A stretch of 33,036 bases of DNA, taken from positions 1-33,036 of IMG/VR virus record IMGVR_UViG_3300045922_001048; one strand, given 5' to 3'. Under the pieces are notes generated by a model. That model saw only the letters and a list, made by a program, of their open reading frames with translations, searched no databases and was not told where the DNA came from. The stretch's first letter is position 1; the number at the start of each line of letters is the position of its first letter. Below are positions 6,878-33,036 of this stretch, piece by piece. Source of the DNA: a virus. Position numbers and translations under genes: made by a program.

Positions 6878-8107
6878 ATGCTTGAGGAACGGATCCGCGA
6901 GCTGCGGCGCCGGCGCGGGCAGGCGATCGCCACCGCCCGGTCGATCCTGGAGACGGCCGAGGCCGAGCGGCGGTCGATGACCGCCGACGAGTCGCGGCAA
7001 TTCGACGAGCACATGGAAGAGGCCGACCGCCACAAGGCCGAGGCGGAGCGCTGCGAGCGCCTGATGGCCGAGGAGCAGGCGGCCGGCCCGCCGCGGCCGC
7101 CGGCGGTCGGCCGGGCCGGGCTGGCCGCCGGCGGCGAGGAGGAGTCGCGCCAGGTGGCGCGGCGCGGCATGGCCGCCTTCCTGCGCGGCGGCCTGCCGGC
7201 GATGAGCGAGCCGGAGCGCCGCGCGTTGCAGGCCGACATCGACACCGCCGGCGGCTACGTCCGCCCCGACCAGGAGTTTGTCGGCCAGCTGATCAAGGCG
7301 GTCGACAACCTGGTCTTCGTGCGGCAGTTCGCGACCGTCCGCCAGGTGATGAATGCCGACAGCCTGGGCGTGCCGGTGCTCGACAGCGATCCCGACGACG
7401 CCGACTGGACCTCGGAGCTGGGCACCGGCAACGAGGACGCCGCGATGGTGTTCGGCAAGCGCGAGCTGCGGCCGCATCCGCTCGCCAAGCGGATCAAGGT
7501 CAGCAACAAGCTGCTGCGCGTCTCGACCATCGATATCGAGGCGCTGGTGCGCCAGCGGCTGGCCTACAAATTTGCCGTGCCGCAGGAGAAGGCCTTCCTG
7601 ACGGGCAACGGCAGCCAGCGCCCGCTGGGGGTGTTCACCGCCTCGGCCGACGGCATTTCGACCGCCCGCGACGTCCAGACCGGCTCGGCGACGGATTTCA
7701 CCGCCGACGGGCTGATCGATGCCAAATACGCCCTGAAGGGGCAGTACTGGGGCCGGCCGAGCACCCGCTGGTGCTTCCATCGCGACGCCATCAAGCGGAT
7801 CCGCAAGCTCAAGGACAGCCATAACCAGTACCTCTGGCAGCCCGGCCTGGCCGGCGGCCAGCCGGACACGATCCTCGATATCCCGTTCGTGGTCAGCGAG
7901 TACGCGCCGAACACGTTCACCACCGGCCAGTACGTCGGCATCCTCGGTGACTGGTCGTACTACTGGATCGCCGAGTCGATGGCCTTCCAGATCCAGCGGC
8001 TGATCGAGCTGTATGCCGCGACCAACCAGACCGGCTTCATCGGCCGGGCGGAGATCGACGGCATGCCGGCGCTCGAGGAAGCCTTCGTGCGGCTGAAGAC
8101 CAACTAA
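6878..8107 (+). CDS. Major capsid protein, HK97 fold
   Basis: A 409-residue capsid protein. Residues 1-70 form a charged coiled coil, MLEERIRELRRRRGQ onward, which is the delta/scaffolding domain expected to be removed by the upstream protease. Around residues 70-110 lies a Gly/Arg/Pro-rich linker. The HK97 fold follows: GGYVRPDQEFVGQLIKAVDN, VPVLDSDPDDADWTSELG, RIKVSNKLLRVSTIDIEALV, QEKAFLTGNGSQRPLGVF and IPFVVSEYAPN. A good ribosome binding site precedes ATG 6878. It builds the icosahedral shell. Confidence 0.95.
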   Translation: MLEERIRELRRRRGQAIATARSILETAEAERRSMTADESRQFDEHMEEADRHKAEAERCERLMAEEQAAGPPRPPAVGRAGLAAGGEEESRQVARRGMAAFLRGGLPAMSEPERRALQADIDTAGGYVRPDQEFVGQLIKAVDNLVFVRQFATVRQVMNADSLGVPVLDSDPDDADWTSELGTGNEDAAMVFGKRELRPHPLAKRIKVSNKLLRVSTIDIEALVRQRLAYKFAVPQEKAFLTGNGSQRPLGVFTASADGISTARDVQTGSATDFTADGLIDAKYALKGQYWGRPSTRWCFHRDAIKRIRKLKDSHNQYLWQPGLAGGQPDTILDIPFVVSEYAPNTFTTGQYVGILGDWSYYWIAESMAFQIQRLIELYAATNQTGFIGRAEIDGMPALEEAFVRLKTN

Positions 8108-8124
8108 TGCCCGGCGCCGCCGGG

Positions 8125-8156
8125 CCGGTCGGGCGGCGATCCAGCCGCCCGGCCGG
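8125..8156 (+). promoter_or_regulatory. Hairpin after capsid gene
   Basis: A 13-bp stem with one G-U pair (ccggtcgggcggc / gccgcccggccgg) and a 6-base loop lies between the capsid gene and the next gene. A smaller hairpin (cccggc / ccggg) lies at 8110-8124. It has no T-tract. It may be a partial terminator or a 3'-end stabiliser that raises capsid mRNA over downstream genes. Confidence 0.45.
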
Positions 8157-8167
8157 GGGAGGATGAG

Positions 8168-8542
8168 ATGCGGGACCTCGAGAATGCGATCGATATCGCC
8201 CAGTCGCTGGCGCCGGCGGCGCGGACCGCCACCGCCAATGGCACCGGCGTCGATCTGGCCAACTACAACGGGGCGGTGGTGGTGTTCGCGGTCGGGACGA
8301 TCACCGACGGCACTCACACGCCGAAGATCCAGGAGAGCGACGACAACAGCACCTTCACCGACGTGGCGGCGGCCGACCAGATCGGGACGTTCGCCAACCT
8401 GGCCTCCAGCACGCCCCAGAAGGTCGGCTACGTCGGCAGCAAGCGCTATCTCCGCGCCGTCAGCACCGTGACCGGCGCGACGACCGGCGGCGTGTACGGG
8501 GCGGTGGTGGTCCGCGGCTACGCCCGGAAGCAGCCGAGGTAG
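8168..8542 (+). CDS. Probable head decoration/structural protein
   Basis: A 124-residue beta-rich protein directly after the capsid gene, with the ribosome binding site gggggagg. The pattern VDLANYNGAVVVFAVGTITD, then PKIQESDDNSTFTDV and VGYVGSKRYLRAVSTVTG, matches a family common beside capsid genes in siphoviruses and gene-transfer-agent-like elements. Its proteins are predicted to form a jelly-roll-like accessory or decoration protein. The role is inferred from position and pattern. A decorating or head-stabilising function is most likely. Confidence 0.65.
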   Translation: MRDLENAIDIAQSLAPAARTATANGTGVDLANYNGAVVVFAVGTITDGTHTPKIQESDDNSTFTDVAAADQIGTFANLASSTPQKVGYVGSKRYLRAVSTVTGATTGGVYGAVVVRGYARKQPR

Positions 8543-8545
8543 GCG

Positions 8546-8767
8546 GTGGGCCTGACCTGGGTGCGGCTGCGCGCGACCTACGCCGCGGCACATGGCCTCG
8601 TCCGGCCCGGCGACGTGGTCGTCGCGGTCACGGAGGACGAGGCGCAGGCGCTGGTGGCGGGCGGCTACGCCGAGCGCCTGACCGCGCCGGCCGAGCGCGC
8701 CGTGGCCGCGCCGGCGGCCGAGCGCGCCGTGGCCGCGCGGCCCGGCCGGCCGGGAGGCCGCGCCTAG
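8546..8767 (+). CDS. Small head-region protein with short repeat
   Basis: A 73-residue protein starting at GTG 8546, 3 bases after the previous stop. The first 45 residues (VRLRATYAAAH, then VRPGDVVVAVTEDEAQALV) look like the small proteins that often follow the capsid gene. These have a Pro-Gly-Asp turn and a Glu/Ala helix ending in AGGYAERL. The C-terminus contains a tandem AERAVAA unit and an Arg/Gly/Pro tail, probably disordered. The function is unknown. It may be a head-tail interface or accessory head protein. Confidence 0.55.
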   Translation: MGLTWVRLRATYAAAHGLVRPGDVVVAVTEDEAQALVAGGYAERLTAPAERAVAAPAAERAVAARPGRPGGRA

Positions 8768-9349
8768 GTGGCCGCGCGCGGCTATACCAATCCGGACCGG
8801 GTGGCCGGCTACCTGGGGCTGACGCTCACCGCGGCGCAGGTGGCGCAGGCCGGGACGCTGCTGGAGGCGGCCGAGGCCGCCATCGACGAGCACTGCCATC
8901 GCGCCTGGCTGCTGGGGACGCAGACCGACGAGACCCACTGGGGGCCGTTCGGGCCGAACCTCTACGTCCGGTACCCGCCCTGCACCGCCATTACGGCGGT
9001 CAAGGGGCGGTCCGGTCTGGGCGCGAGCGAGACGGTGCTGGTGGCCGGCGAGGACTACGAGGTCCGCGACCTGGCCGCCGGGCGGATCTGGCTGGCGGCG
9101 CCGGCGGTCTACGACCGCCTGCGCGTCACCTATACGCCAGACGCGGCGCTGCCGCCGGACGTGGCGCTGGCGGCGACGGAACTGGTGGCCAGCTACCTGG
9201 TCGAGCACCTGCGGCCGGAGAGCTACGGGCTGGAGTCGTTCCGGCTGCCGGACCTGGAGGTGCGCATCGCCCGCTGGCTGCGCGAGCGCGAGCTACCGCC
9301 GGGCGTGGCGGCGCGGCTGGCGCCGCACGTGTTCCACCGCGTGGCGTGA
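8768..9349 (+). CDS. Head-tail connector (gp6-like)
   Basis: A 193-residue connector protein starting at GTG 8768, directly after the previous stop. The N-terminal helices (TNPDRVAGYLGLTLT, VAQAGTLLEAAEAAIDEHCHR) match the HK97 gp6-like adaptor pattern. They are followed by a beta-rich middle, YVRYPPCTAITAVKG and EDYEVRDLAAGRIWLA, and a C-terminal helical segment. It would form a ring below the portal. The beta insertion makes it longer than HK97 gp6 and more like gp15-type adaptors. Confidence 0.7.
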   Translation: MAARGYTNPDRVAGYLGLTLTAAQVAQAGTLLEAAEAAIDEHCHRAWLLGTQTDETHWGPFGPNLYVRYPPCTAITAVKGRSGLGASETVLVAGEDYEVRDLAAGRIWLAAPAVYDRLRVTYTPDAALPPDVALAATELVASYLVEHLRPESYGLESFRLPDLEVRIARWLRERELPPGVAARLAPHVFHRVA

Positions 9350-12631: not shown

Positions 12632-15600
12632 ATGGCCGACCTCAACGTCGCGATCAAGATCGCGGGCCAGGATGCCGGCGCCTCGGCGGCCATCGAGCGC
12701 GTCAACACGGCGCTGGGCGGGATGCAGAGCGCGGCCGGCCTGGCGGTCAAGGCCGTCGCCGGCGTCGGGCTGGCGGCGGCCGGGCTGGCGGCCGGCGGCA
12801 TCGGCGCCTCGATCAAGGCGGCCAGCGATTTCGAGCGGACGCTGAGCGGCGTGAAGGCGGTCTCGGGCGCGACCGCGGCGGAGATGGAGTCGCTGTCCGG
12901 GCTGGCGCTCCAGCTCGGCAAGGACACCGCCTTCTCGGCCGCGGAGGCGGCGGCCGGCATCGAGGAGCTGGTCAAGGGCGGGCTGAGCATCCCTGACATC
13001 ATGCAGGGCGCGGCCAAGGCGACGCTGGACCTGGCGGCGGCCGGCCAGGTCAGCCTGCCGGAGGCGGCCACCATCGCCGCCAACGCGCTGGCCCAGTTCA
13101 GCCTGCGCGGCAGCGACATGGCCCACGTCGCCGACCTGATCGCCGGCGCGGCCAACGCCAGCGCGCTCGACGTGCGCCAGTTCGCCCTCTCGCTCCAGGC
13201 CTCCGGCGCGGTCGCGGCCACCGTCGGCTTCTCGTTCGACGATCTGGCCCAGGCCATCGCGGTGATGGGCAAGGCGGGCATCACCGGCTCGGACGCCGGC
13301 ACCAGCCTGAAAACGATGATGCTCAAACTCCAGCCGTCCACCAAGGAGCAGGTGGCGCTCTTCCGCAAGCTGGGCCTGGTGACGGCGGATGGGGCGAACC
13401 GGTTTTTCGACGCCAGCGGCAAGATCAAATCGATGGCCGAGGTGGCGCAACTGCTCCAGGACGCCACCGCCGGCATGACCGAGCAGCAGCGGATCGCGAC
13501 GCTGGAGGTGATGTTCGGCTCGGACGCGATCCGGGCGGCGGCGGTGCTGACGCGCGAGGGCGCGGCCGGCTTCGGCGAGATGGCGGCCGCGATGGGCAAG
13601 GTCTCGTCCGCCTCGGTCGGCGCGGAGCGGCTCAACAACCTCCAGGGGATGCTGGAGCAACTCAAGGGCAGCCTGGAGACGGCTGCCATCACGCTCGGCA
13701 TCGCGTTTCTGCCGATGCTGACCGAGCTGGCGCGCGGCGCGACGGACGCGGTCAACGCCGCCGTTCCCTTCCTGGAGGCCTGGGGGCCGCGGCTGGCGGC
13801 CGGCGTCGGCGCCACGCTGCGCTTCGTCACCGACGCCGTGCTCACCTTCGTCGGCGCGGTCAGCGGCGACTGGGAGCCGGCGCCGGGCATCGAGCGGCTC
13901 CACCTGCTGGTCGGCCAGGTCGGGCTGGTGGTGGGCCAGGTGATCCCGGTGGTGATGACCACGCTCGACACGCTCGGCCAGGTGGCGGAGCGGGTGTTCG
14001 CCGGGGATATCCCCGGCGCGGTGGGCGCGCTGTTGACCGGCCTGAGGGATGGCAACGTCCAACTGGGCACGATCCTGGCCGGCTGGGGACAGCAGTTCCT
14101 GGCCTGGATCGGGCCGCTGCGCTTCGTCACCGACGCCGTGCTCACCTTCGTCGGCGCGGTCAGCGGCGACTGGGAGCCGGCGCCGGGCATCGAGCGGCTC
14201 CACCTGCTGGTCAGCCAGGTCGGGCTGGTGGTGGGCCAGGTGATCCCGGTGGTGATGACCACGCTCGACACGCTCGGCCAGGTGGCGGAGCGGGTGTTCG
14301 CCGGGGATATCCCCGGCGCGGTGGGCGCGCTGTTGACCGGCCTGAGGGATGGCAACGTCCAACTGGGCACGATCCTGGCCGGCTGGGGACAGCAGTTCCT
14401 GGCCTGGATCGGGCCGTTGATCCCGCCGCTGCTGGCCGAGGCGAACCGGCTGTTCCTCGAGCTGGTGGGCTGGATCACCGCGAACGCGCCGCCGCTGCTG
14501 GAGCGGTTCCTGGGCGAGTGGCTGCCGGCGGCCATCAAGTGGATCGTCCAGGCGGCCATCTACGCGATTCCGAAGCTGATCGAGTTTATGGACGCGGTCA
14601 AGGATTGGATCGACGGCCCCGGCGGGCAGGCGATCGGCATGCTGTTCCTCAAGCTCGGGGAGGCAGCCATCCGCGGACTGTTGACCGGCCTGAGGGATGG
14701 CAACGTCCAACTGGGCACGATCCTGGCCGGCTGGGGACAGCAGTTCCTGGCCTGGATCGGGCCGTTGATCCCGCCGCTGCTGGCCGAGGCGAACCGGCTG
14801 TTCCTCGAGCTGGTGGGCTGGATCACCGCGAACGCGCCGCCGCTGCTGGAGCGGTTCCTGGGCGAGTGGCTGCCGGCGGCCATCAAGTGGATCGTCCAGG
14901 CGGCCATCTACGCGATTCCGAAGCTGATCGAGTTTATGGACGCGGTCAAGGATTGGATCGACGGCCCCGGCGGGCAGGCGATCGGCATGCTGTTCCTCAA
15001 GCTCGGGGAGGCAGCCATCCGCGGACTGGCGAAGGGCATCTGGGAACTGAACGTCTGGGCCTATACCGAACTGGGGAAATGGCTGGGCGAGCTGGCGACG
15101 CAGGCGCTGGCGGCGGCGGGGAAGGTCGGCGATGCGATCGTCGCCGGCATCCGGGCCGGCATCGAGGCGAAGTGGGCGGAGCTGACGGCCTGGCTGGGCG
15201 CGGGCGTCCAGGCGCTCATCAGCGCCGCCCGCGCGGCGCTGCGCATCAGCAGCCCGTCGCAGGCGTTCGCCGATCAGGTCGGCGCGCCGATCGTCGAGGG
15301 CATCGCCGCCGGCATCCGGGCCGCCGAGCCGGACGCGCTGGCGGCGCTGGCGACGGTGGTGGCCCGGCTGACCGGCGCCGCCACGGCCGGCGTGGCCGGC
15401 GTTCAGGCGATCCTCGCCCGCCCCGGCGCCGGCGGGGGCGGCGGCGGGGGCGGCGGCAGCGGGGAGGGCAGCGGCGGGGAGAGCGGTGGCCCGCCGGACG
15501 GCGGACCGATGCCTGGCGCGAGCTGGCTCGCCGATCCGCTCTACCGGCGCATCCAGGCCAATCTCGGCTGGCACCCCAACGTGGCCGGCCGGGCGCCGCT

Positions 15601-23095: not shown

Positions 23096-23818
23096 ATGCC
23101 GGCCAGCGCGATGCCGCAGTCGGTCCTGATCGACAGCAGCGACCGGCTGCTGCGCACCAGCGACCTGCTCAGCTACGACGCGCCCTACACGATGATGACC
23201 TGGCTGTACGTGGTGACCGCGCCTGGCCTCAACGTCTACGACACGATCTTCAGCATTAACGTCAATAGCACCTCAGTCAATTATGACATCTTTGACATCA
23301 AGGGCATCGGCTCCAGCCAGTTCAACCTGCTGATCGGCACAGATTCCGGTGACGTCTATGCCGAAACATCGGGTCCGACCGCGCTCGCGTCGGCGACCTG
23401 GTACCACGTCTGCATCGTGCGGGCGGCCGCCAACAGCCGGATCGCCTACCTGGACGGCGCGCAGGAGGTCAACCACACCAGCAGCGTCTCCGGCCGGCCG
23501 ACCGTGACGCGCAATGAGGTGGGGGGGCTCTCGACCAGCAACATCGATGTGATCATCGGTCGGTTCGCCGGGATCAAGCTCTGGCGGCGCGCGCTGAGCC
23601 GGGCGGAGGTCCAGGCGGAGCGGCTCTGGCTCTACCCGGTCAACTGGCGCGACCTCTATCTCTGCACGCCGCTGCGCGGCGGGCACAACGATCTGCAGGA
23701 CGTTTCCGGCGCCGGCCGGAACTGGACTGCCGTTGGCACGCTGACGACGGCCGACGGACCGCCGGCGGTCGGCCTCTACCCGCCGGCGATGCTGGCGCGC
23801 CTGGCACGGGGGCGGTAG
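23096..23818 (+). CDS. LamG/concanavalin A-like adhesin
   Basis: A 240-residue protein. ATG 23096 lies 2 bases after the previous stop; ATG 23111 is an alternative. It has a laminin-G/concanavalin A-like lectin pattern: PYTMMTWLYVVTAPGLNVYD, ASATWYHVCIVRAAANSRIA, YLDGAQEVNH and RFAGIKLWRRALSRAEVQAE. The C-terminus LYPVNWRDLYLCTPLRGGHN is typical of lectin-like domains in phage tail proteins. It probably binds surface glycans of the host. Part of the gene (about 23250-23350) is less GC-rich than its neighbours, which may indicate an acquired module. Confidence 0.75.
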   Translation: MPASAMPQSVLIDSSDRLLRTSDLLSYDAPYTMMTWLYVVTAPGLNVYDTIFSINVNSTSVNYDIFDIKGIGSSQFNLLIGTDSGDVYAETSGPTALASATWYHVCIVRAAANSRIAYLDGAQEVNHTSSVSGRPTVTRNEVGGLSTSNIDVIIGRFAGIKLWRRALSRAEVQAERLWLYPVNWRDLYLCTPLRGGHNDLQDVSGAGRNWTAVGTLTTADGPPAVGLYPPAMLARLARGR

Positions 23819-24678
23819 TGTTCGCGCCCTACGTGCCGCTGCCGGGGCTGGACGCGGCCTTCGTGCCGGAGCCGGCAGGCGCGGTGGCCAAAACGGCCAC
23901 GGAGGCGCTCGCGCTCGGCGAGGCGGTGGTGGTGGCGGCAGCGGTGACGCTGGCGGAGGGGCTGGCGCTGGCGGAGGCGCCGAGCATTGCCGCGCAGCTC
24001 AGCCTGGCGGAGGCGCTCGGGCTGGCCGAGACCGGCCGGATCGAGCTGATCGCGGCCGAGGGGCTGGCGCTCGGCGACGGCCTGACGCCGGTGGCCGCCG
24101 TGGCGGCGAGCGATGCCCTGGCGTTGGGGGAGGCGCTGGCGCCAGTGGCCACCACAACGCTGGCCGACGGGCTGGCGCTGGCGGAGGGGCTGGCGCTGGC
24201 GGCGACCGCGACGCTGGCCGAGGGCCTGGCGCTGGCCGAGGGCCTGGTAACGGATCAGGGGAACCTGCCAGTGACGCTGGCGGACGGGCTCGGGCTGGTC
24301 GAGGGGCTGGCGCCGGCGGCGACCGCGACGCTGGTGGACGGGCTGGCGCTGGCCGAGGGGCTGGCGCTAGCGCCGGCGGTGACGCTGGCGGACGGGCTCG
24401 GGCTGGCCGAGGGGCTGACGCTGGCGGCGACCGCGACGCTGGCGGACGGGCTGGCGCTGGGGGAGGCGCTGGCGCTGGCGCCGGCGGTGACGCTGGCCGA
24501 GGGGCTGGCGCTGGCCGAGGGGCTGGTGGTGATCGCCGGCGGTGTTGCCCTGACCGGGCCGTTCGCCTCAACCAGCGCGCTGCAGCCGGCGCCGGTCAGC
24601 GGCAGCGCGCTGCAGCCGGCGCCGGTCAGCGGCAGCGCGCTGCAGCCGGCGCCGGTCAGCGGCAGCGCGCTTCGGTAG
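23818..24678 (+). CDS. Repetitive Leu/Ala/Gly-rich protein
   Basis: A 286-residue protein starting at GTG 23818, overlapping the previous stop as TAGTG. Residues about 20-245 are built from a degenerate unit of roughly 9 to 20 residues, (T)LA(D/E)GLALAEGLALA(A/P)A, repeated many times. The C-terminus has three exact copies of SALQPAPVSG. Similar LxDxLxLxExL repeats occur, as I recall, in extracellular and fibre-like proteins. No enzyme motif or signal peptide is visible. It may be a spacer or fibre between the lectin-like protein and the baseplate protein that follows. High GC also leaves the antisense frame open, so I judged strand by position and overlap. Confidence 0.6.
   Translation: MFAPYVPLPGLDAAFVPEPAGAVAKTATEALALGEAVVVAAAVTLAEGLALAEAPSIAAQLSLAEALGLAETGRIELIAAEGLALGDGLTPVAAVAASDALALGEALAPVATTTLADGLALAEGLALAATATLAEGLALAEGLVTDQGNLPVTLADGLGLVEGLAPAATATLVDGLALAEGLALAPAVTLADGLGLAEGLTLAATATLADGLALGEALALAPAVTLAEGLALAEGLVVIAGGVALTGPFASTSALQPAPVSGSALQPAPVSGSALQPAPVSGSALR
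24574..24663 (+). repeat. Three tandem 30-bp repeats
   Basis: Three identical 30-bp units at 24574-24603, 24604-24633 and 24634-24663, each encoding SALQPAPVSG, followed by a 9-base partial copy. They lie at the 3' end of the repetitive gene. Copy number is likely to vary between isolates. Confidence 0.95.
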
Positions 24679-25647: not shown

Positions 25648-26079
25648 TCATCCCGCGCCGCGTGCCCGCCAGGCGCGCTCGATCAGATCGAGCGCCCGGC
25701 CGTCCCGCACCATCGCGCCGGTGACGCGCACCAGCAGCCAGCCCAGGATGGAGGCCTCGCTGTACTTGATCGCATCCTGCTCGTAGCCGGCGCCGCGCAC
25801 GTGCCGGCCATCGCTCCAGGTGCCGCCCTCGACCTCGACGGCCAGCCGCCGGTCGGGCCAGGCGAAGTCCAGCGCCCACTGGCGCTCGGGATGGAAGCGC
25901 CAGTTGCGCTCGGGCAGCGGCAGACCGACGGCGCGCAGGTGCGCCAGCAGCGTGATCTCCAGGTGCTCGCGCCGCGCCCGCAGGTGGAGGCGCTCCAGTT
26001 CGGTCAGACGGCGCTTGGGGCGCTTCGGCTCGGGCTCCTCGAATGGGTCGCGGTCGAGCACGATGGCGCGCGGGCTCAT
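25648..26079 (-). CDS. PD-(D/E)XK-like endonuclease
   Basis: A 143-residue protein. The core WRFHPERQWALDFAWPDRRL, then AVEVEGGTWSDGRHVRGAGY and DAIKYSEASILGWLLVRVTG, follows a small phage nuclease pattern related to DUF559/VSR-like enzymes. The presumed metal ligands are D71 and the E-V-E pair (E82, E84). A basic helical N-terminus precedes the core. ATG 26079 overlaps the preceding gene stop as ATGA. It is the last gene of the minus operon. A role in recombination, resolving branched DNA or host DNA attack is possible. Confidence 0.75.
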   Translation of the reverse strand: MSPRAIVLDRDPFEEPEPKRPKRRLTELERLHLRARREHLEITLLAHLRAVGLPLPERNWRFHPERQWALDFAWPDRRLAVEVEGGTWSDGRHVRGAGYEQDAIKYSEASILGWLLVRVTGAMVRDGRALDLIERAWRARGAG

Positions 26080-26954
26080 CGCGCCAGTCCCTGGCCGACC
26101 GGCGCTGGCAGATCGCGCTGAAGGCGCCCGCCGGACCGATCCTGGCGCCGGCGCCAGGGCTCGGGCGGCACCTCATCCCAGGTCCGACCATCGAGCAGGC
26201 GCCCACCGGCGGCGTGATGCGGACCGCCGACCTGCTTGAAAAAGAAGGGGACCTGAGCCGCCTGGCATTGGGCGCGCAGGTCGCGCGCCCAGGACAGATC
26301 CATCGGCCGGGCGTCACGGCCGCTCTCGCCACCGGCGATGACCCAGTTTATGCCGGGCCAGTCGAGCAGCCGCGCCGCGCCGGCGGCGCCGGTCGGGTAG
26401 TCGTATTCGTAGCGCCGGCGTAGGACGGACCGCAGGTCCAGCGGGCCGAGCAGTGGCTCGCAGGAGAGGAAGCGGACCTGGCAGGGCGTCAGGCCGAGTG
26501 GTGGGATGCGCAGCGCGGCGGCCTCCTGATGCTCGACCGACACGCCCAGCCAGAGGTGCGGCGGGAGGGCTGCCAGGCCGCGCTCGCGGCAGTAGCGCGC
26601 GATGAAGGAGCGCATTTTGCCGGGGCGCTTGGTCAGGATGAGGTAGGTGTGGCGGTTGACGCGGCAGAACATGTCCAGCGCCAGCCGCACGAACTCGTAG
26701 GTGGCCTGCTCGTGGAAGAAGTCGGACATGCTATTGACGAAGATGCGCTCCGGCGTCTGCCATTCCTCGACCTTGTGCAGCACCGCCGGGTGCTCGGTGT
26801 AGGCGAAGCCGTTGGAGTACTTGGGCTGACCCATGGCGCGCAGCCGGCGGGTGAGGGTCTCGGCATAGCAGTGGTCGCAGCCGGCCGAGACCCTGGTGCA
26901 GCCCGTGGCGGCGTTGAGGACGGCGGTAGCCCATTCGATCCTGGTCCTGCTCAT
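26076..26954 (-). CDS. Gp37/Gp68-family protein (DUF5131)
   Basis: A 292-residue protein of the phage Gp37/Gp68 family. The N-terminal signature IEWATAVLNAATGCTRVSAG, followed by CDHCYAETLTRRL, has three cysteines (C19, C26, C29) in a pattern like an iron-sulphur, radical-SAM-type site. Further family blocks are RIFVNSMSDFFHEQATYEFV, HTYLILTKRPGKM, WLGVSVEHQ, VRFLSCEPLLGPLDL, WVIAGGESGRDARPM and VPFFFKQVGG. The reaction is unknown. It starts in an ATGA overlap with the upstream gene. The C-terminal 30 residues are Arg-rich. Confidence 0.9.
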   Translation of the reverse strand: MSRTRIEWATAVLNAATGCTRVSAGCDHCYAETLTRRLRAMGQPKYSNGFAYTEHPAVLHKVEEWQTPERIFVNSMSDFFHEQATYEFVRLALDMFCRVNRHTYLILTKRPGKMRSFIARYCRERGLAALPPHLWLGVSVEHQEAAALRIPPLGLTPCQVRFLSCEPLLGPLDLRSVLRRRYEYDYPTGAAGAARLLDWPGINWVIAGGESGRDARPMDLSWARDLRAQCQAAQVPFFFKQVGGPHHAAGGRLLDGRTWDEVPPEPWRRRQDRSGGRLQRDLPAPVGQGLAR

Positions 26955-27307
26955 GCAGGTTCCTCATCATGGGCGGCGGCCCGGTACTGCCTCCAGGCCG
27001 CCTGCTTGACGGCTCCGTACTGATCGAGGGCCGCCTGTGTGGCGGCCACGTACTGCTCCCAGGCCGCGTCGCTGGCCGCCGGCGCCGCCCAGTACTCCGC
27101 CAGCGCCCGGAGGAGGGCGGCCAGGTAGCGCTCGCCGGCCGCGCGCATGGCGGCCTCGTACTGCTCCCAGGCCGCATCCCGGCGCGGCGGGGGGGGGGTG
27201 ATCGGCGCCGGCCCCGCTAACAGCCGGCTGGGCAGCGCGCCGGGCAGCCGCAGGCTTTCGTCGCCGGGGTCGCGGTCGCTCATCACGGGGCGCTCATCGG
27301 TCGTCAT
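26951..27307 (-). CDS. A-W-x-Q-Y repeat protein (copy 4)
   Basis: A 118-residue protein. The start at 27307 (MTTDERP) is chosen over 27331 because a gggaggtg ribosome binding site lies 6 to 7 bases before it, inside the upstream gene; the two genes overlap by 14 bases. After a Pro-rich N-terminal 45 residues, the rest is an Ala/Trp/Tyr repeat: DAAWEQYEAAMRAAGERYLA, DAAWEQYVAATQAALDQYGA and KQAAWRQYRAAA. The 11-residue spacing suggests a long helix with aromatic residues on one face. It belongs to the same family as the genes ending at 30606, 31346 and 32944. The function is unknown. Confidence 0.65.
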   Translation of the reverse strand: MTTDERPVMSDRDPGDESLRLPGALPSRLLAGPAPITPPPPRRDAAWEQYEAAMRAAGERYLAALLRALAEYWAAPAASDAAWEQYVAATQAALDQYGAVKQAAWRQYRAAAHDEEPA

Positions 27308-27671
27308 GGTCGTCACCTCCCGTTGGCTCATCCAGTGTCAGCGCCTCGCGGCAGCGCGCGATGACGTCGGCGTGGGACTGCGACTGCTGCTCGGCGCCAG
27401 CCAAGAGGTCGCTGAGCGCCGCCTGATAGCGGCGCGCGCGCCACCGCCAGGCCGCGAGCGCCGCCAGTTGCCGATCGACCGTCGCATCCTCGCCGGCCCG
27501 GAGGCCGGCCAGATAGCCGTCGGCAAAAATGATCCTGACGAGCGGGTTGCGGCTCAACGACCGATCATCCGGGTCCTGGCCGGTGATCTCGGTCATGAGC
27601 GCCTCCAGCCCGGGACGGTAGGCGTCCCATGCTGCCAGGGCCGCATGCCGGCGCTGGTCATGCGTGTCCAT
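27294..27671 (-). CDS. Hypothetical helical protein
   Basis: A 125-residue protein. ATG 27671 follows gggaggtgacgg and overlaps the upstream gene by 14 bases. It is mainly helical: an N-terminal AALAAWDAYRPGLEALMTEI, a middle NPLVRIIFADGYLAGLRAGE, and a C-terminal Gln/Ser-rich helix. The GYLAGLRAGE stretch resembles short motifs in small phage proteins of unknown role. The end carries the ribosome binding site of the next gene. I do not recognise it. Confidence 0.6.
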   Translation of the reverse strand: MDTHDQRRHAALAAWDAYRPGLEALMTEITGQDPDDRSLSRNPLVRIIFADGYLAGLRAGEDATVDRQLAALAAWRWRARRYQAALSDLLAGAEQQSQSHADVIARCREALTLDEPTGGDDHDDR

Positions 27672-28275
27672 CCGTCACCTCCCTCGCGACCGGTCCAACC
27701 AAAAATACCCGCCGCGGGTATGGGTGCCGCCGCTCGCCGCAGGCGGGGCAGACGGCTGGCCCGCGATCCAGGGGGTCGCGCGGCTCCCACCAAAAATCGC
27801 CGTGGTCGCGGCAGTGCCAGACGCCGGGTGTCCAGCGCGCTCGCATCCATGGCAGCGCCGGCCCCGCCGCGCCGTAATCCAGCCCCGCGCGGAATGGATA
27901 GGGCTGGTCCCACCCCAGCGGGTGCGCCGGGGCGTCGAATAGGCTGAGCTGGAGGGTGCAGGCCGGACCGTCAGCGCGCTCGATCTCCAGCGCATCGCCG
28001 CCGATCGTCCGGTAGCCGCCGCGGTCGCGATAGATATGGTTGATCGTGAGGAAATCGCAGTCCATGTTGCGCGGCCGTGTCCCCGCCTTGATGAGCCGCA
28101 GGGAGACGACTGGCTCGTGGCTGATGAGGCGCGCATCCCCATCGTCCCACCAGTAGTATGGCCCCCAGATGCGCCAGATCTCGTACGGCCCCGTCCCATA
28201 GCTGGTCCGCACGACATCGCCCGTGCGAAGCCCGAGCCCCTCCTGGACGATCGGGCGGTAGAGCCCCGTGCTCAT
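27658..28275 (-). CDS. Hypothetical protein with C-terminal zinc ribbon
   Basis: A 205-residue protein. ATG 28275 follows gggggaggcgcc and overlaps the upstream stop as ATGA; the longer open frame upstream is shadow. The N-terminal part contains GDVVRTSYGTGPYEIWRIWG, PYYWWDDGD and HIYRDRGGYRTIGG, a beta-rich pattern seen in some phage proteins of unknown role. The C-terminus has W-H-C-x2-H-G-D and CPACGERRHPYPRR, which could bind zinc. No catalytic motif is recognised. Confidence 0.6.
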   Translation of the reverse strand: MSTGLYRPIVQEGLGLRTGDVVRTSYGTGPYEIWRIWGPYYWWDDGDARLISHEPVVSLRLIKAGTRPRNMDCDFLTINHIYRDRGGYRTIGGDALEIERADGPACTLQLSLFDAPAHPLGWDQPYPFRAGLDYGAAGPALPWMRARWTPGVWHCRDHGDFWWEPRDPLDRGPAVCPACGERRHPYPRRVFLVGPVAREVTDGHA

Positions 28276-28532
28276 GGCGCCTCCCCCGAGGGCGGCCAGC
28301 CGGCCCGGCGCAGGCTGCGCTTGCGCCGGGCCTCGGCCAGCGCCAGCCGCTCCTCGTGCCGGTCCATGCACGCGGGGCAGAGGTCGACCAGGTCGTACTC
28401 GGCGGTGCGCGCCTGCCCCCAGCCCTGGACTGATGCGAGCGTATTGGCGCGGGTGATCGTGCTGGCCGGCAGCGGCTCGCTGGCCGAACCACAGCCATCG
28501 CAGATGAGGATGCACTGGAATCGTTTGGTCAT
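28272..28532 (-). CDS. Small zinc-ribbon protein
   Basis: An 86-residue protein starting at 28532 (MTKRFQ), with ribosome binding site ggggaggcccc. It has CDGCG near residue 10 and CPAC near residue 53, a likely four-Cys zinc site with an approximately 40-residue loop. A basic C-terminal helix follows. Its last residues, PSGEAP, are the same as in the gene just upstream, reflecting a similar stop-ribosome binding site junction. Both ends overlap neighbours as ATGA. The function is unknown. Confidence 0.6.
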   Translation of the reverse strand: MTKRFQCILICDGCGSASEPLPASTITRANTLASVQGWGQARTAEYDLVDLCPACMDRHEERLALAEARRKRSLRRAGWPPSGEAP

Positions 28533-28771
28533 GGGGCCTCCCCGCTCGGGCAGAGGCCGAGCAAAAACTGCCGCACGATCGCGGGATCGCTGCCACACCA
28601 GGCGCACCAGTCCTCAAAATCGCGGGTGTCCAGCCAGGCGTGCAGATCGGCCCGGCCGCTGGCGGCGTCCCACCGGACCTGTTGCCAGAAGGCCAGCACC
28701 AGGCCCAGCATCCCGCCGGCCGGCAGGCCAGACTTGCCGCAGCCATAGCGCGTCCGCCGCCGGCGCCTCAT
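28529..28771 (-). CDS. Hypothetical small Trp/Cys protein
   Basis: An 80-residue protein with a basic Arg-rich start, a hydrophobic stretch (GGMLGLVLAFWQQV) and a second half with WCAWCGSDPAIVRQFLLGLC. The C-x2-C and single Cys residues could bind metal. ATG 28771 overlaps the previous stop as ATGA. I do not recognise the family. Confidence 0.5.
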   Translation of the reverse strand: MRRRRRTRYGCGKSGLPAGGMLGLVLAFWQQVRWDAASGRADLHAWLDTRDFEDWCAWCGSDPAIVRQFLLGLCPSGEAP

Positions 28772-29133
28772 GTGACGGACCCCGCGCGGTCGGACCGGGC
28801 CAGCGCCGCCCGCACCGCCAGCGCCGCCCGCTCCGGGTCGCCGGCGCAGACCGAGCAGCGCCTCAGCATCCCCAGCCGGGCGAACAGCTCCGGCCGCCCA
28901 TCGACCACCCAGCCGGCGCCGCGGCAGCCGGGGCAGACGGCGCCAGTCCCCCTACAGGTCGGACACCGGCCCTGGCTGCCGCTGCCGCGGCAGTCCGGGC
29001 AGGCGACCTGGTCCCAGGCCGGGTGGGCCGGCGCCGTTGAGGCCGAGCGCGGCGCGGTAGCGCTCGGCCTCGGCACGTTCGCGCTCCTCAGCACGGCGCC
29101 GGTCGTCAGCGGTCGATCCTGGTCGTATGCCAT
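28768..29133 (-). CDS. DnaJ-type zinc-finger protein
   Basis: A 121-residue ORF starting at 29133 after ggagggacacc. The middle contains CPDCRGSG, CPTCRGTG, CPGCRGAG and a later CSVCAG, the CxxCxGxG repeats of DnaJ-like zinc fingers. The N-terminal 45 residues overlap out of frame with the end of the replisome-organizer-like gene and look unstructured. The real coding part may start near PAHPAWDQVACP. It could be a separate small protein or the C-terminus of the upstream protein reached by a +1 shift. Confidence 0.6.
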   Translation of the reverse strand: MAYDQDRPLTTGAVLRSANVPRPSATAPRSASTAPAHPAWDQVACPDCRGSGSQGRCPTCRGTGAVCPGCRGAGWVVDGRPELFARLGMLRRCSVCAGDPERAALAVRAALARSDRAGSVT

Positions 29134-30022
29134 GGTGTCCCTCCGGGCTGGCACAGCGATGCCAGTGTTTGACGAGCGCCGGCAGGGTCAGCAGGATCGG
29201 CTTGCCGGCGCCATCGACGCCCATCACCCGCCCGTAGTTGGCGGCGCGGCGCTGGATCTCCTCCGGCGTGGCCTGCAGCTCGTCCAGCGCGCGCAGGTTG
29301 GCTGCGTACAGCGCCCACTGCGGCCCGGCCGGGCGGCCGAACAGCTCGACCACCGGGCCGAACAGCGGGTGGCGCTCGACCCAGCCGCGCTCCGGCCGGT
29401 CCCGCGGTCGCGACGCCGTCACGCGGCGGGCGGCGGCCGGCGCGGCAGCGGCCGGCCCGAGCCCGCTAGGGCTCGGTATGTCCTGTCCTGTACTGTACTG
29501 TAGAAGCGTGAGTGACGCGTCCGTCACGCGTGACAGCTCGACCGCGGCGCCAGGTGGTGACGGATCGTGGTCGTCTGACGGCGGCGTGAGTGGCGCGCTG
29601 GTCGGGGCGGCGCGGGCGATGCGCGCCGGTGCGTGGTCCTGATGGCGCTCGTGGCGCTCGCGGTAGGCGCGCTGCCGTTCGGTGGCGGCGCGGCGGCGGG
29701 CGATGGTCTTCCCGCCGCCGTCGGCCCAGTCGTGGATGCGATAGCCGTCGCTCCCCGCCTCGAGGAAGCCGGCGCGGCCGCCGGCGCCGCACGACAGGAG
29801 CGCGGCGACGAACGCGTCGGCCGCGCCCTCCCAGTCCGCAGCAGCGGCGATATCGTCGTCGCTGTAGCCGGCCAGGTCGCCGTCCGGCGCGTAATCGAGG
29901 CACCACCACCAGAGGCAGTGGAGGTGGCCGATCAGTTGCGGCAGGCTGATGCCAAGCGCGCGCGCCGCGCGCCGCGTTTTGGGGTGATTGCGGAGTTCCT
30001 GGTGGGATTCGAGCCAGGCCAT
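28952..30022 (-). CDS. Replisome organizer / replication initiation-like protein
   Basis: A 356-residue protein starting at 30022 (TAATG overlap with the upstream gene). The N-terminal 110 residues follow a common phage replication pattern: WLESHQELRNHPKTRRAARA, LIGHLHCLWWWCLDYAPDGD, GYSDDDIAAAADW and YRIHDWADGGGKTIARRR, a winged-helix domain. A long Pro/Ala/Arg linker follows. A DnaD-like segment reads LDELQATPEEIQRRAANYGR, then LTLPALVKHWHRC. The last 25 residues are Gly/Pro/Arg-rich and look out of frame. They overlap the zinc-finger ORF by 182 bases. It should bind the phage origin and recruit the host helicase. Confidence 0.78.
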   Translation of the reverse strand: MAWLESHQELRNHPKTRRAARALGISLPQLIGHLHCLWWWCLDYAPDGDLAGYSDDDIAAAADWEGAADAFVAALLSCGAGGRAGFLEAGSDGYRIHDWADGGGKTIARRRAATERQRAYRERHERHQDHAPARIARAAPTSAPLTPPSDDHDPSPPGAAVELSRVTDASLTLLQYSTGQDIPSPSGLGPAAAAPAAARRVTASRPRDRPERGWVERHPLFGPVVELFGRPAGPQWALYAANLRALDELQATPEEIQRRAANYGRVMGVDGAGKPILLTLPALVKHWHRCASPEGHHGIRPGSTADDRRRAEERERAEAERYRAALGLNGAGPPGLGPGRLPGLPRQRQPGPVSDL

Positions 30023-30609
30023 TACTGCTCCTCGACCGGCGCGAGGCGCGCCGTCCCGTCCGGCTGATCGACCAGGCGCCGCTGGCCGCGCGCCCAGTCG
30101 ATCAGCTCGGCCATCTCGGCATCGGTGAGGTCGGCCGTGCGCGCCGCCGCGTAGCAGCGCTGGATCACCGGCAGGACGTCGGCCGGCCCGAGGCCGCGCT
30201 CGTCCAGCAGCGCCAGCAGCATGCCATTGAGCTTGGCGCGTGGCGGCAGGCGGCGCCCGCCCGCCTGCCGCCGGCCCACCCCCTGGTCCAGTTCGGCGGC
30301 GAACTGGGTGCCGTAGCCGAGCGCCGCCAGCGCCCGGCCAATGGCGCTGGTCTCGCCATTGGCGATGTAGTCGCGGGTCGCGCCGGTCGGCTCCTGGATG
30401 ACGGTGCCGGTGGCGGTGCCGCCACCGGGGATCGTCACCGTGGCCCGCACGATCGCGTAGGGCTCGTCGCGATTGTGCTCGATGATCTGGGTGACGATCT
30501 GGGCGTCGGGGTGCTCCTGGCGCAGCCAGACGAGCCGCCACCGCACCTCCAGGTACTCCTGACCCTGCAGCCGGATTAGGTGCCGGCGCGGGTCGAAGCG
30601 CTCGCTCAT
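30022..30609 (-). CDS. Candidate single-strand annealing protein
   Basis: A 195-residue protein. The pattern FDPRRHLIRLQGQEYLEVRW, RLVWLRQEHPDAQIVTQIIE, then YIANGETSAIGRALAALGYG, is found in phage proteins placed near replication genes. It resembles the core of Rad52/Erf-type annealing proteins, where an E-T-x-A-I-G-R-A-L helix follows a beta-sheet. The C-terminal 80 residues are helical with acidic ends. It would anneal single strands during recombination. The family assignment is from memory of the motif. It starts with an ATGA overlap. Confidence 0.6.
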   Translation of the reverse strand: MSERFDPRRHLIRLQGQEYLEVRWRLVWLRQEHPDAQIVTQIIEHNRDEPYAIVRATVTIPGGGTATGTVIQEPTGATRDYIANGETSAIGRALAALGYGTQFAAELDQGVGRRQAGGRRLPPRAKLNGMLLALLDERGLGPADVLPVIQRCYAAARTADLTDAEMAELIDWARGQRRLVDQPDGTARLAPVEEQ

Positions 30610-30989
30610 CGCTCATCCTCCGCGGGCCGGACGGCGGCGCGCTCGGCCGGCGTCAGCCCCAGGGCGGCCAGCTCCGCCTCGTACTCCGCCCGCGCGGGGC
30701 CGGTGGCGGCGTCGTACTGTTCGCGGGCCGCCCGCTTGGCGGCCTTAAACCGCGCCCAGGCCCGGCGCTCGGCGGCGCCGTACTGCTCCCAGGCCGCGCC
30801 GATGGCGGCCTCGTACTGCGCCAGGGCCGGGCGCGTGGCGAGCTGGTATCGCGCCAGCGCCGCCGCGAGCGCCCGGACCGGATGTGGACCGTCCTGACTG
30901 GCCAGCCGGACGGTGCAGCGTCTGCCCTCGTGCCGCCGGCGCGGCTGGGGGGTGGGATCACCGGGCGCCGTCGGCTCCGGGGTGGTCAT
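30606..30989 (-). CDS. A-W-x-Q-Y repeat protein (copy 3)
   Basis: A 127-residue protein starting at 30989 (MTTPEPTAPG), with ggaggcgg before it. Residues 1-45 are Pro/Arg/Thr-rich. Residues about 47-105 are repeats with an Ala-aromatic rhythm: AAALARYQLATRPALAQYEA, AIGAAWEQYGAAERRAWARF, then REQYDAATGPARAEYEAELA. The 29-codon block at 30754-30840 is identical in DNA to 31476-31562 in the copy ending at 31346. The repeat predicts one long helix with Tyr/Trp at regular spacing. No known domain is recognised. Confidence 0.65.
   Translation of the reverse strand: MTTPEPTAPGDPTPQPRRRHEGRRCTVRLASQDGPHPVRALAAALARYQLATRPALAQYEAAIGAAWEQYGAAERRAWARFKAAKRAAREQYDAATGPARAEYEAELAALGLTPAERAAVRPAEDER
30754..30840 (-). 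repeat. 87-bp block shared with 31476-31562
   Basis: Identical to 31476-31562 as read base by base and in the same reading frame of two A-W-x-Q-Y genes. The flanking codons of the two genes differ. This points to recent gene conversion or a copied module, not ancient duplication alone. Confidence 0.92.
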
Positions 30990-30990
30990 G

Positions 30991-31359
30991 TCAGCCGCCT
31001 CCGATCCGGCCGGCGACGCCGGCAACGATCAGGCCGAGCAGGATGCCGGCCAGCAGACAGCCAACCCAGTCCACGAGCTGGACCGCGCGCAGCCGGGTAT
31101 TGGCCGCGGCCAGGTAGGCAGCGGCGCGCTGGACGCGGGTGGCGGACGCCGCCACGCGCTCGGCCTCCGCCTCGGCGGCATCCAGCGCCTGGCGGAGTTC
31201 GTCGCGCTCCCGCGCCAGGCGCGGGGTGAGGAAGCGGCTGACCTCGGCCGCCAGGTCGGGGTCGGCCAGCAGGGCGCGGATCATCGAGCGCGCCAGCGGG
31301 GTCGAGCCGATTGGCGCCGGCGCCTGGCGCTGCTGGGTGGGCGGATCACTCGGTGGCAT
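30991..31359 (-). CDS. Tail-anchored coiled-coil membrane protein
   Basis: A 122-residue protein. The start at 31359 (MPPSDPP) is preferred to 31368 because gaggagg lies 9 bases before it but abuts the other. It overlaps the upstream gene by 14 bases. The first 16 residues (PPSDPPTQQRQAPAP) match the start of the protein encoded from 32957. A charged coiled coil follows (RDELRQALDAAEAEAERVAA). Residues about 95-118 form a C-terminal membrane anchor (WVGCLLAGILLGLIVAGVAG). The topology is cytoplasmic with a C-terminal anchor. The function is unknown. Confidence 0.65.
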   Translation of the reverse strand: MPPSDPPTQQRQAPAPIGSTPLARSMIRALLADPDLAAEVSRFLTPRLARERDELRQALDAAEAEAERVAASATRVQRAAAYLAAANTRLRAVQLVDWVGCLLAGILLGLIVAGVAGRIGGG

Positions 31360-31438
31360 TGGGGACATCCTCCTCAGCGGCGAGGGCGGCCAGCGCGGCG
31401 TCGTACTGCTCCCGCGCGGGGTCGGTGGCGGCCAGGTA
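31313..31438 (-). repeat. Copy of junction segment also at 32911-33036
   Basis: This 126-bp segment matches 32911-33036 with only four mismatches, at 31380, 31382, 31392 and one near 31422. It covers the 3' end of an A-W-x-Q-Y gene and the ribosome binding site, start and first 16 codons of the next gene. The first 67 bp are identical. The second copy runs off the window edge, so the repeat may be longer. Confidence 0.92.
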
Positions 31439-31630
31439 CTGCTCCAGCGCCGCGCGCTTGGCCGCCTCATACCGTGCCCAGGCCCGGCGCTCGGCGGCGC
31501 CGTACTGCTCCCAGGCCGCGCCGATGGCGGCCTCGTACTGCGCCAGGGCCGGGCGCGTGGCGGCCACGTACTGCTCCCAGGCCGACCGGCGCTGCTGGAA
31601 GGCGACGTCGGGATTGGTAGGGGCGCTCAT
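31346..31630 (-). CDS. A-W-x-Q-Y repeat protein (copy 2)
   Basis: A 94-residue protein starting at 31630 after ggaggaggtcgaccc, overlapping the methyltransferase stop as ATGA. Nearly the whole protein is repeat: RRSAWEQYVAATRPALAQYE, AAIGAAWEQYGAAERRAWAR, KRAALEQYLAATDPAREQYD. It ends with AALAAEEDVPNATE. The aromatic residues recur every 7 or 11 residues, as in a coiled or stacked helix. Its C-terminus and following junction are duplicated at the window edge. The function is unknown. Confidence 0.65.
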   Translation of the reverse strand: MSAPTNPDVAFQQRRSAWEQYVAATRPALAQYEAAIGAAWEQYGAAERRAWARYEAAKRAALEQYLAATDPAREQYDAALAALAAEEDVPNATE

Positions 31631-32481
31631 GGGTCGACCTCCTCCGTTTGCAAGTGGACAGCAATGGCGCTCAGGATGGGATAGATCTGCTGGGGGACGA
31701 CGGCGTTGCCGAGGGCGCGACAGCGGTCCAGCCGTGAGGGAAGCCCATGAGCCACTCGACCACGTCGGGATCGGCTGCCGAGCCGTGCTCCCGCGTCGCC
31801 ATCTGCACCGACGGGTGGTAGCGTGCTCTCCCAGTGAGCGAGATCCCGAACCCGTGCCCGCCCCATGAGGCGGCTGGGGTTGGCAACAGGCTGTGGATGG
31901 CAGTGAGCCGGCGTTTCCAGGCGGCGCGGGCATCGGTCCCGTGGGCCGACGGCCCGCCCGTCGCTGCGCGCGGTGTGGTCCACAATAAAACACCGCTCTT
32001 GGATGTGCGGAGCACCGACGGCGCAAGCCGGTAGTACGACCGCCCCAGCGGTGTAGTCGAGGTCTTCCAGGTCAGCCAGCACATCGTCGAGCGCCATTCT
32101 GACGATGTGAGCAACGTTCTCAGCAACGATCCAACGGGGCCGGGCGGCAGCGATGACCCGGCGCATTTCTGGCCAGAGATAGCGGTCATCCTGCGTGCCC
32201 AGGCGCTTCCCGGCCGTACTGAAGGGCTGACAGGGGAAGCCGCCGCTGAGAAGGTCGATGGGTCCGAGTCCGGCCACAGTGGCGCGGTCGAGGGATTCGA
32301 TGGCGTCATAGATCGGCACTCCCGGCCAGTGGTGCGCGAGCACGCGCTGGCAGAACGCATCGCGCTCGCAGAAGGCGACCGTCTCGAAGCCGGCCCAGGT
32401 CGCCGCGAGGTCGATGCCGCCGATACCCGAGAAAAGAGAGAGGTGCGTGAGCGCCCTGGCAGTGGCAGGCGTGGCGCTCAT
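31627..32481 (-). CDS. C5-cytosine DNA methyltransferase, probably frameshifted
   Basis: A 284-residue ORF starting at 32481 after gaggaggtcgcccg. Motif I (LSLFSGIGGIDLA, about 14-26), motif IV (GGFPCQPFS, catalytic C84), the Glu of motif VI (VAENV, about 119-123) and GAPHIQERCFIV are present. The frame also ends with RALGNAVVPQQ (motif X-like). However, residues about 190-250 do not look like the family. The neighbouring minus frame over about 31900-31725 reads SLLPTPAASWGG, YHPSVQM and VVEWLMGFPHGWT, the normal target-recognition and motif IX region. Two compensating indels would explain this. It may be inactive, or two sequence errors may be present. Confidence 0.75.
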   Translation of the reverse strand: MSATPATARALTHLSLFSGIGGIDLAATWAGFETVAFCERDAFCQRVLAHHWPGVPIYDAIESLDRATVAGLGPIDLLSGGFPCQPFSTAGKRLGTQDDRYLWPEMRRVIAAARPRWIVAENVAHIVRMALDDVLADLEDLDYTAGAVVLPACAVGAPHIQERCFIVDHTARSDGRAVGPRDRCPRRLETPAHCHPQPVANPSRLMGRARVRDLAHWESTLPPVGADGDAGARLGSRSRRGRVAHGLPSRLDRCRALGNAVVPQQIYPILSAIAVHLQTEEVDP

Positions 32482-32957
32482 CGGGCGACCTCCTCGGGGC
32501 CGGCGGGAATGAGCCGGTCGATGCGGACGGTGCTGGTCGTGTGGGTGCTGCCGCTGAACCGCCGCGTCGCCTGCTCCCAGCGGACCCTGGCGCACGCGGG
32601 TTGCCGCTGCGTCGCCGCCAGGAGGGCGACCACCACGCCCACGGTGCGGCGCTCCCGCGGGTCGCGCCGCAGGACGCGCGTCCCGACGCGGATCGCCTCC
32701 TGCGGTGCGATTGGCCGTCTGCCGCTGCACTCGCGGCAGACGGCCGGATATTGACCGTATACCTTGTCTGCCGCGTCCACCGTGCGCGGCCAGCCGGGCG
32801 CGCCGTGGGCGTCCCACCTCTGGCCGCAGAGCGACCGGCTCAGGTCGTGGCGGTGGGCGATATGCCAATGGCGGCTGAGGTCGTAGGAGATGTAGACGAG
32901 ATCGGCACTGGGCGCCGGCGCCTGGCGCTGCTGGGTGGGCGGATCACTCGGTGGCAT
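32478..32957 (-). CDS. Hypothetical zinc-binding-like protein
   Basis: A 159-residue protein starting at 32957 (MPPSDPP), the same type of start as the gene at 31359, with gaggagg 9 bases upstream. After the shared first 16 residues it differs completely: VYISYDLSRHWHIAHRHDLS, LCGQRWDAHG, and VCREC, which with the first Cys could form a zinc site. The C-terminal half is beta-rich and basic. It appears chimeric, a borrowed leader on an unrelated body. It ends in an ATGA overlap with the methyltransferase. The function is unknown. Confidence 0.6.
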   Translation of the reverse strand: MPPSDPPTQQRQAPAPSADLVYISYDLSRHWHIAHRHDLSRSLCGQRWDAHGAPGWPRTVDAADKVYGQYPAVCRECSGRRPIAPQEAIRVGTRVLRRDPRERRTVGVVVALLAATQRQPACARVRWEQATRRFSGSTHTTSTVRIDRLIPAGPEEVAR

Positions 32958-33036
32958 TGGGGACATCCTCCTCAGCGTCCAGGGCGGCCTGCGCGGCGTC
33001 GTACTGCTCCCGCGCGGGGCCGGTGGCGGCCAGGTA
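32944..33036 (-). CDS. A-W-x-Q-Y repeat protein (copy 1, partial)
   Basis: Only the last 30 codons are in the window. They read YLAATGPAREQYDAAQAALD and end in AEEDVPNATE, nearly the same as the end of copy 2. The stop at 32944 overlaps the start of the next gene by 14 bases. The 5' part lies beyond the window edge. It belongs to the same family as the genes ending at 31346, 30606 and 26951. Confidence 0.7.
   Translation of the reverse strand, partial: YLAATGPAREQYDAAQAALDAEEDVPNATE

Follow-up and report, generated by a model that had tools for sequence, protein, structure and literature searches.

The linear virus DNA described here, IMG/VR record IMGVR_UViG_3300045922_001048 (33,036 bp, 71–76% GC; its full length is called the window throughout), harbors in its right part a block of short minus-strand genes, four of which encode proteins built of a repeated unit of 11 residues, a hendecad. 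The gene rep1 (32944..33036, −) is represented by its 3′ end, which encodes 30 residues and is truncated by the contig end. The complete copy rep2 (P0001, 94 residues; 31346..31630, −) comprises six uninterrupted 11-residue units, rep3 (P0002, 127 residues; 30606..30989, −) carries a basic N-terminus followed by six uninterrupted units, and rep4 (P0003, 118 residues; 26951..27307, −) a Pro-rich N-terminus followed by 3 + 3 units, the two blocks being separated by a 3-residue insertion. A preliminary description of the sequence had proposed four such minus-strand reading frames, kept as several non-identical copies. All four are present, three complete and one partial, and nucleotide comparison confirms that the copies differ from each other, paralogues being found in other records as well.

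A Shine-Dalgarno-like sequence precedes the start of each complete copy. The start of rep2 overlaps the stop of a methyltransferase gene, the stop of rep3 overlaps the start of the next gene, the end of rep4 overlaps the start of a DUF5131 gene, and the stop of the gene preceding rep3 (geneB) lies two bases ahead of the rep3 start. The GC content at third codon positions is 0.87–0.92, similar to that of the neighbouring genes. By virtue of these ribosome-binding sites, overlaps or near-overlaps and coding-type base composition, the three complete copies are genuine genes.

The 3′ ends of rep1 and rep2 belong to a duplicated block of 126 nucleotides (31313..31438, −, copy at 32911–33036), which covers the end of the repeat gene together with the initial codons of the gene that follows and is 97% identical between the two copies; beyond it, the two downstream genes, geneA and geneB, are unrelated. 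Likewise, a run of about 28 codons is identical at every nucleotide between rep2 and rep3 and is flanked by diverged sequence on both sides. Judged from these alignments, the 126-nucleotide block is a recent duplication, and the window copies stem from gene duplication with mosaic exchange.

The 11-residue unit and its predicted helix

Within the three complete copies the unit reads A-[W/L/R]-[E/A]-[Q/R]-Y-x-A-A-x-x-[A/P]. Position 1 is Ala in all 18 units and position 5 is Tyr in 17/18, the remaining unit carrying Phe. Positions 7 and 8 are Ala in 17/18 and 16/18 units, respectively, position 2 is occupied by Trp, Leu or Arg, and Gln is found at position 4 in 12/18. The spacing had initially been given as 7 or 11 residues. 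Self-similarity at lag 11 is the highest among lags 2–22 in every complete copy (z of 6.7, 5.2 and 4.9 for rep2, rep3 and rep4, as compared to maxima at any lag of 4.3, 4.0 and 4.7 in shuffled sequences), whereas lag 7 reaches only 1.9, −0.7 and 2.4, so that the period has to be read as 11 and the 7-residue spacing is given up.

In a unit-by-unit comparison of nonsynonymous (pN) and synonymous (pS) differences within the window, pS amounts to 0.25–0.63. It is 0.42 at position 1 and 0.63 at position 5, as against a pN of 0.00 and 0.04, respectively; positions 7 and 8 have a pN of 0.11 and 0.13. With substantial pS and low pN at the fixed positions, the protein pattern is kept against ongoing nucleotide change. 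At positions 6, 9, 10 and 11 pN is as high as pS or higher. The window copies are older than the young arrays of other phages, and the fixed Ala/Tyr stripe is clear in them.

Since the 11-residue unit corresponds to three helical turns, Ala1, Tyr5 and Ala8 align as a straight stripe, with residues 8, 1 and 5 at −33, 0 and +33 degrees; residues 9, 2 and 6 form another stripe at 65, 98 and 131 degrees. AlphaFold2 predicts rep2 as one continuous 81-residue helix (residues 7–87) with a predicted local distance difference test score (pLDDT) of about 98 over the repeats, and this model supports the initial suggestion of a long helix that presents Tyr and Trp regularly on one face. Ala1, Tyr5 and Ala8 fit the stripe of small or non-polar residues at hendecad positions a, d/e and h, but the hydrophobic moment is significant in rep4 only, where 0.03 of shuffles reach the observed value. 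The repeats are nearly neutral, with net charges of −2 (rep2), +2 (rep3) and −1 (rep4).

Relatives in other phages and change at set positions

The window copies have no family match in Pfam, PHROGs, NCBIfam (above chance), PADLOC or PDB sequences; none of these searches turned up a homologue with a known unrelated domain, and the monomer prediction proposed as a check yielded a helix. A direct tblastn search with rep2 against phages, plasmids and IMG/VR gave no match, low-complexity masking being one likely reason, and the pattern AWEQYxAA matched 25 times in IMG/VR, with no repeat protein among the matches. The pattern AAERRAxxRYxAAKR had L067 as its sole match.

Relatives were detected by a scan for a DNA pattern with a 33-nucleotide period (Tyr-x-Ala-Ala-x3-Ala-x3-Tyr, three Tyr), with 44 matching stretches in IMG/VR and 48 in bacterial and archaeal genomes. 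Many of these encode the same hendecad with the other residues varied, others being Ala/Tyr low complexity or chance; the 26 matches of a period-12 control proved on reading to be Ala/Tyr low complexity or repeats of short period, mostly 6 residues. The hendecad thus recurs widely among uncultured phages, and a single phage often carries several paralogues. Compared record by record, rep2 matches G009 (E 2e-10), G008 (2e-7), G003 (2e-7) and G010 (4e-7); over G009, G008, G010 and G012, all of which contain the A-x-x-x-Y-x-A-A hendecad, E ranges from 2e-10 to 2e-6. Relatives of the window's terminase are spread across many hosts at less than 60% identity. The terminase of L128 is 86% identical to that of the window, and L127 is 99.6% identical over 14.2 kb; both contigs stop short of the repeat genes.

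The phage hendecad proteins of L049, L126, L062/L209, L208, L063, L210 and L069 resemble the window copies in their A-[R/W]-x-x-Y-x-A-A-x-x-P unit, in being multicopy in several phages and in their early-region placement in several. They differ in that their arrays are longer and most of them possess an N-terminal domain of about 50 residues, conserved in many phage relatives (AC-x2-Q-x3-F ... FDWxWAAxxLL). A profile of this domain, A1, detects eight copies in G007, about ten in G006, two in G012 and one in G009. The window copies lack it, and A1 matches the window record (G000) at the repeat end only, at profile positions 51–76. The window copies are likely homologous to this family, although convergence of Ala-rich helices may account for the resemblance. 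A G007 member is predicted to consist of the N-domain and two long hendecad helices with a short turn between them (predicted template modelling score, pTM, 0.82). A Foldseek/VIA search with this model (L049) gave no significant PDB match, its top viral match being an uncharacterised phage protein, and the literature searched contained no paper on phage repeats of this kind. Adjoining the hendecad paralogues of L049, a protein of tandem leucine-rich-like units (LPEGLxVxGDLYLxxCxALTxL; 7905–8993, −) represents another repeat family within one phage region.

In young arrays of other phages the units are nearly codon-identical apart from set positions. The 20-unit array of L208 (8586–9467, +) keeps its codons in 20/20 units at positions 3, 4 and 8 and in 19/20 at positions 1 and 7, whereas position 2 alternates between Trp and Arg, position 6 between Glu, Ala and Lys, position 9 between Gly, Arg, Ala, Ile, Ser and Thr, and position 11 between Pro, Thr and Ala. 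Counted as minimal changes across 12 arrays outside the window, positions 2, 6, 9 and 11 underwent 117 amino-acid changes (1.06 per site), as opposed to 43 synonymous changes (0.43 per site) counted at all positions together (p 1e-7) and 10 amino-acid changes (0.12 per site) at the Ala, Tyr and Ala positions 1, 5 and 8, where changes within an array are not fully independent and the unit-finding rule itself fixes positions 1, 5 and 7 or 8. Restricted to codons at 10% frequency or more, the contrast is 0.79 (amino-acid, positions 2/6/9/11) versus 0.19 (synonymous) per site. If the four most variable positions are picked on half of the arrays and tested on the other half, p is below 0.006 in all 924 splits with a median ratio of about 4, and positions 2, 6, 9 and 11 are the ones picked in 722. 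The relatives therefore diversify in a position-specific manner.

Limitation of amino-acid variation to certain sites of a phage protein is a trait shared with diversity-generating retroelements. Such an element is an unlikely source of the variation, because a search of seven records (G000 and six relatives), which may be fragments, revealed no reverse transcriptase, and because the changed bases in L208 are not confined to adenines.

Neighbouring genes and other features of the window

Downstream of rep1 lies geneA (32478..32957, −), whose first 16 or so codons are common to geneB through the duplication, and behind it the gene of a C5 cytosine DNA methyltransferase (31627..32481, −; PF00145 E 4.7e-35, phrog_363 E 2.2e-75). 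The gene geneB (30991..31368, −) follows rep2, begins with MSPMPPSDPPTQQRQAPAP and ends in a hydrophobic C-terminal stretch; its start is inferred and lies inside an open reading frame that opens at 31470. Translationally coupled to rep3 is a gene for a phrog_27776/11717 protein (30022..30609, −), assigned to PHROGs of unknown function and with a relative in L122 at 63% identity. It is succeeded by a replication-initiation protein (29085..30022, −; phrog_9474 E 1.2e-38), and a DUF5131 protein (PF07505 E 1.3e-82; 26076..26954, −) is coupled to rep4. Out of the neighbourhood originally assigned to the repeats, DNA methylation (PF00145, phrog_363) and replication (phrog_9474) are thereby retained, whereas the gene assigned to annealing matches only PHROGs of unknown function, and the DUF5131 and phrog_503 matches do not establish nucleases.

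In other phages the neighbours comprise DNA polymerase A, VapE-like helicase-primases, Prim-Pol, RecD-like helicases and PD-(D/E)XK nucleases. Of about 11 relatives whose neighbours were read, 6 likewise have replication genes close by, as the proposed co-location would have it; this is suggestive, but the loci were selected for readable neighbours and the comparison is confounded by phage early-region organisation. No such replication-type neighbours occur in the stretch read by eye at L118, L050, L063 and L209, and L118 is near a terminase-like gene. A DUF5131 gene is close to a hendecad gene both in the window, where it was identified by Pfam, and in the 100-kb record of L067 (L207, 2658–3407), where it was identified by motif; with two cases only, this association is too weak to use.

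Further repeats are present elsewhere in the window. An unrelated second repeat protein in the virion-gene region (23818–24678, +) contains Ala/Leu-rich LAEGLALAxxxTLADGL units in steps of 18, 36 and 54 nucleotides and ends in three exact 30-nucleotide repeats (SALQPAPVSG). The tape-measure gene region (13770–14770, +) has internal direct repeats, seen as multiple L127 matches, and a near-perfect direct repeat of 79 nucleotides at 1014–1200 (SLNHTPATCGFGCDRLGYCYARAI in one frame) is present in L127 too. As L127 reaches 296 nucleotides beyond the left end of the window, the latter is incomplete on this side. A tRNA search of the window found none.

Possible roles of the repeat proteins

Hendecad coiled coils are described, in two reports (PMC6191539, PMC4239116), as parts of NadA, intermediate filaments and the cytomegalovirus protein IE1, and viral IE1 is reported there to target a host TRIM-family protein through coiled-coil interactions. 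The phage repeats share with them the 11-residue period of three turns, which gives a straight stripe of small residues, and differ by an Ala/Tyr stripe, by forming free-standing multicopy proteins of 90–130 residues and by the diversification between units at set positions seen in relatives of the window repeats. The 11-residue period is present in the window copies, and a continuous α-helix is predicted for rep2.

Since in the other phages one helix face is fixed and another varies unusually fast, the repeats look like phage proteins for binding or scaffolding that form a class not described so far. The reading tentatively preferred, to which we give somewhat less than even confidence, is that they are early-region hendecad rods whose Ala/Tyr face would mediate self-association and whose variable face would bind a changing putative partner, so that they act as binders or adaptors. 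The Ala/Tyr stripe would pack helix on helix as a hendecad coiled coil. In many-unit relatives this packing would take place within the predicted hairpin, and short copies such as rep2 would form oligomers from a single paralogue or from several. The neighbouring stripe (9, 2, 6) would serve as a binding surface that is free to change. Copies would multiply by duplication of whole genes along with gain, loss and shuffling of 33-nucleotide units, providing the phage with a set of rods that differ in length and surface. Their likeliest use would be as non-enzymatic binders or adaptors in early infection that act on a host or phage partner in DNA transactions, counter-defence included. The roles offered at the outset, namely a filament or scaffold for replication or an anti-defence decoy, are conjectural.

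Several observations weigh against these binding rods. AlphaFold2 is prone to confident helices for Ala-rich repeats, and in rep2 and rep3 the hydrophobic moment is not clearly above that of shuffled positions (matched by 0.14 and 0.35 of shuffles, respectively). The rule by which window units are recognised favours positions 1, 5 and 7/8, so that their conservation is partly built in, and within the window the excess of amino-acid change at the variable positions is without significance. Conversion that homogenises the units, or a preference for certain codons, may also explain the low synonymous diversity in the other arrays. Finally, the neighbouring genes vary among phages.

A more specific version is doubtful: a modular recognition rod in which the Ala/Tyr stripe joins helices while stripe 9/2/6 plus position 11 is diversified by selection and unit shuffling, so that phages would maintain a shifting repertoire of surface patterns directed at host targets, a repeat-based scaffold for an arms race that would be without precedent. 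It is also rather unlikely that the repeats form a structural scaffold or filament which organises the phage replication complex by self-assembly of the Ala/Tyr face, the other face being merely under relaxed constraint. Helix prediction, the hendecad pattern and the replication or recombination genes near the copies in the window and six other phages are compatible with such a filament. However, relaxation alone is insufficient because change at positions 2, 6, 9 and 11 surpasses the synonymous rate in other arrays; moreover L118, L050 and L063 sit away from replication genes, and the copy number ranges from 1 to about 10.

We similarly give little credence to a coding minisatellite, in which slippage and recombination would enlarge and rearrange the array of 33-nucleotide units and the Ala-rich product would be tolerated with little function, and to the addition that the genes would at most mark recombination joints which duplicate the ends of neighbouring genes. 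The mosaic identity of rep2 and rep3, the extension of the 126-nucleotide block into the next gene and the near-zero synonymous divergence of young arrays would all be accounted for in this way. Yet synonymous change is substantial in the window while positions 1, 5, 7 and 8 hardly change their amino acid, the same face is preserved in unrelated phages, and the coupled starts, the Shine-Dalgarno sequences and the conserved N-terminal domain of the relatives likewise speak against a tolerated by-product.

The late embryogenesis abundant (LEA) group, phasins and apolipoproteins contain Ala-rich or amphipathic 11-residue-type repeats. An amphipathic helix of this kind coating a membrane or hydrophobic granule would be in line with weak sub-threshold or borderline Pfam matches of relatives to these long amphipathic helices (LEA_4, PF02987, L062 with 31.2 bits versus a cut-off of 51.1; Phasin_2, PF09361, L062 borderline at 25.5/24.9 without a passing stretch; Apolipoprotein, PF01442, L068 with 15.5 bits versus 90). 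It is improbable here, since the window copies, with their fixed Tyr5 and frequent Trp2, match none of the three models, have a weak hydrophobic moment in two of three cases and carry almost no net charge in the repeats.

Multicopy proteins that turn up in uncultured phages unrelated to each other, and for which Pfam, PHROGs, NCBIfam and the PDB have no entry, would extend the known early phage proteins by a new kind. Should the variable stripe be a binding surface, the arrays record which residues change and would offer a direct handle on the host or phage partner, as well as a natural template for programmable helical binders.

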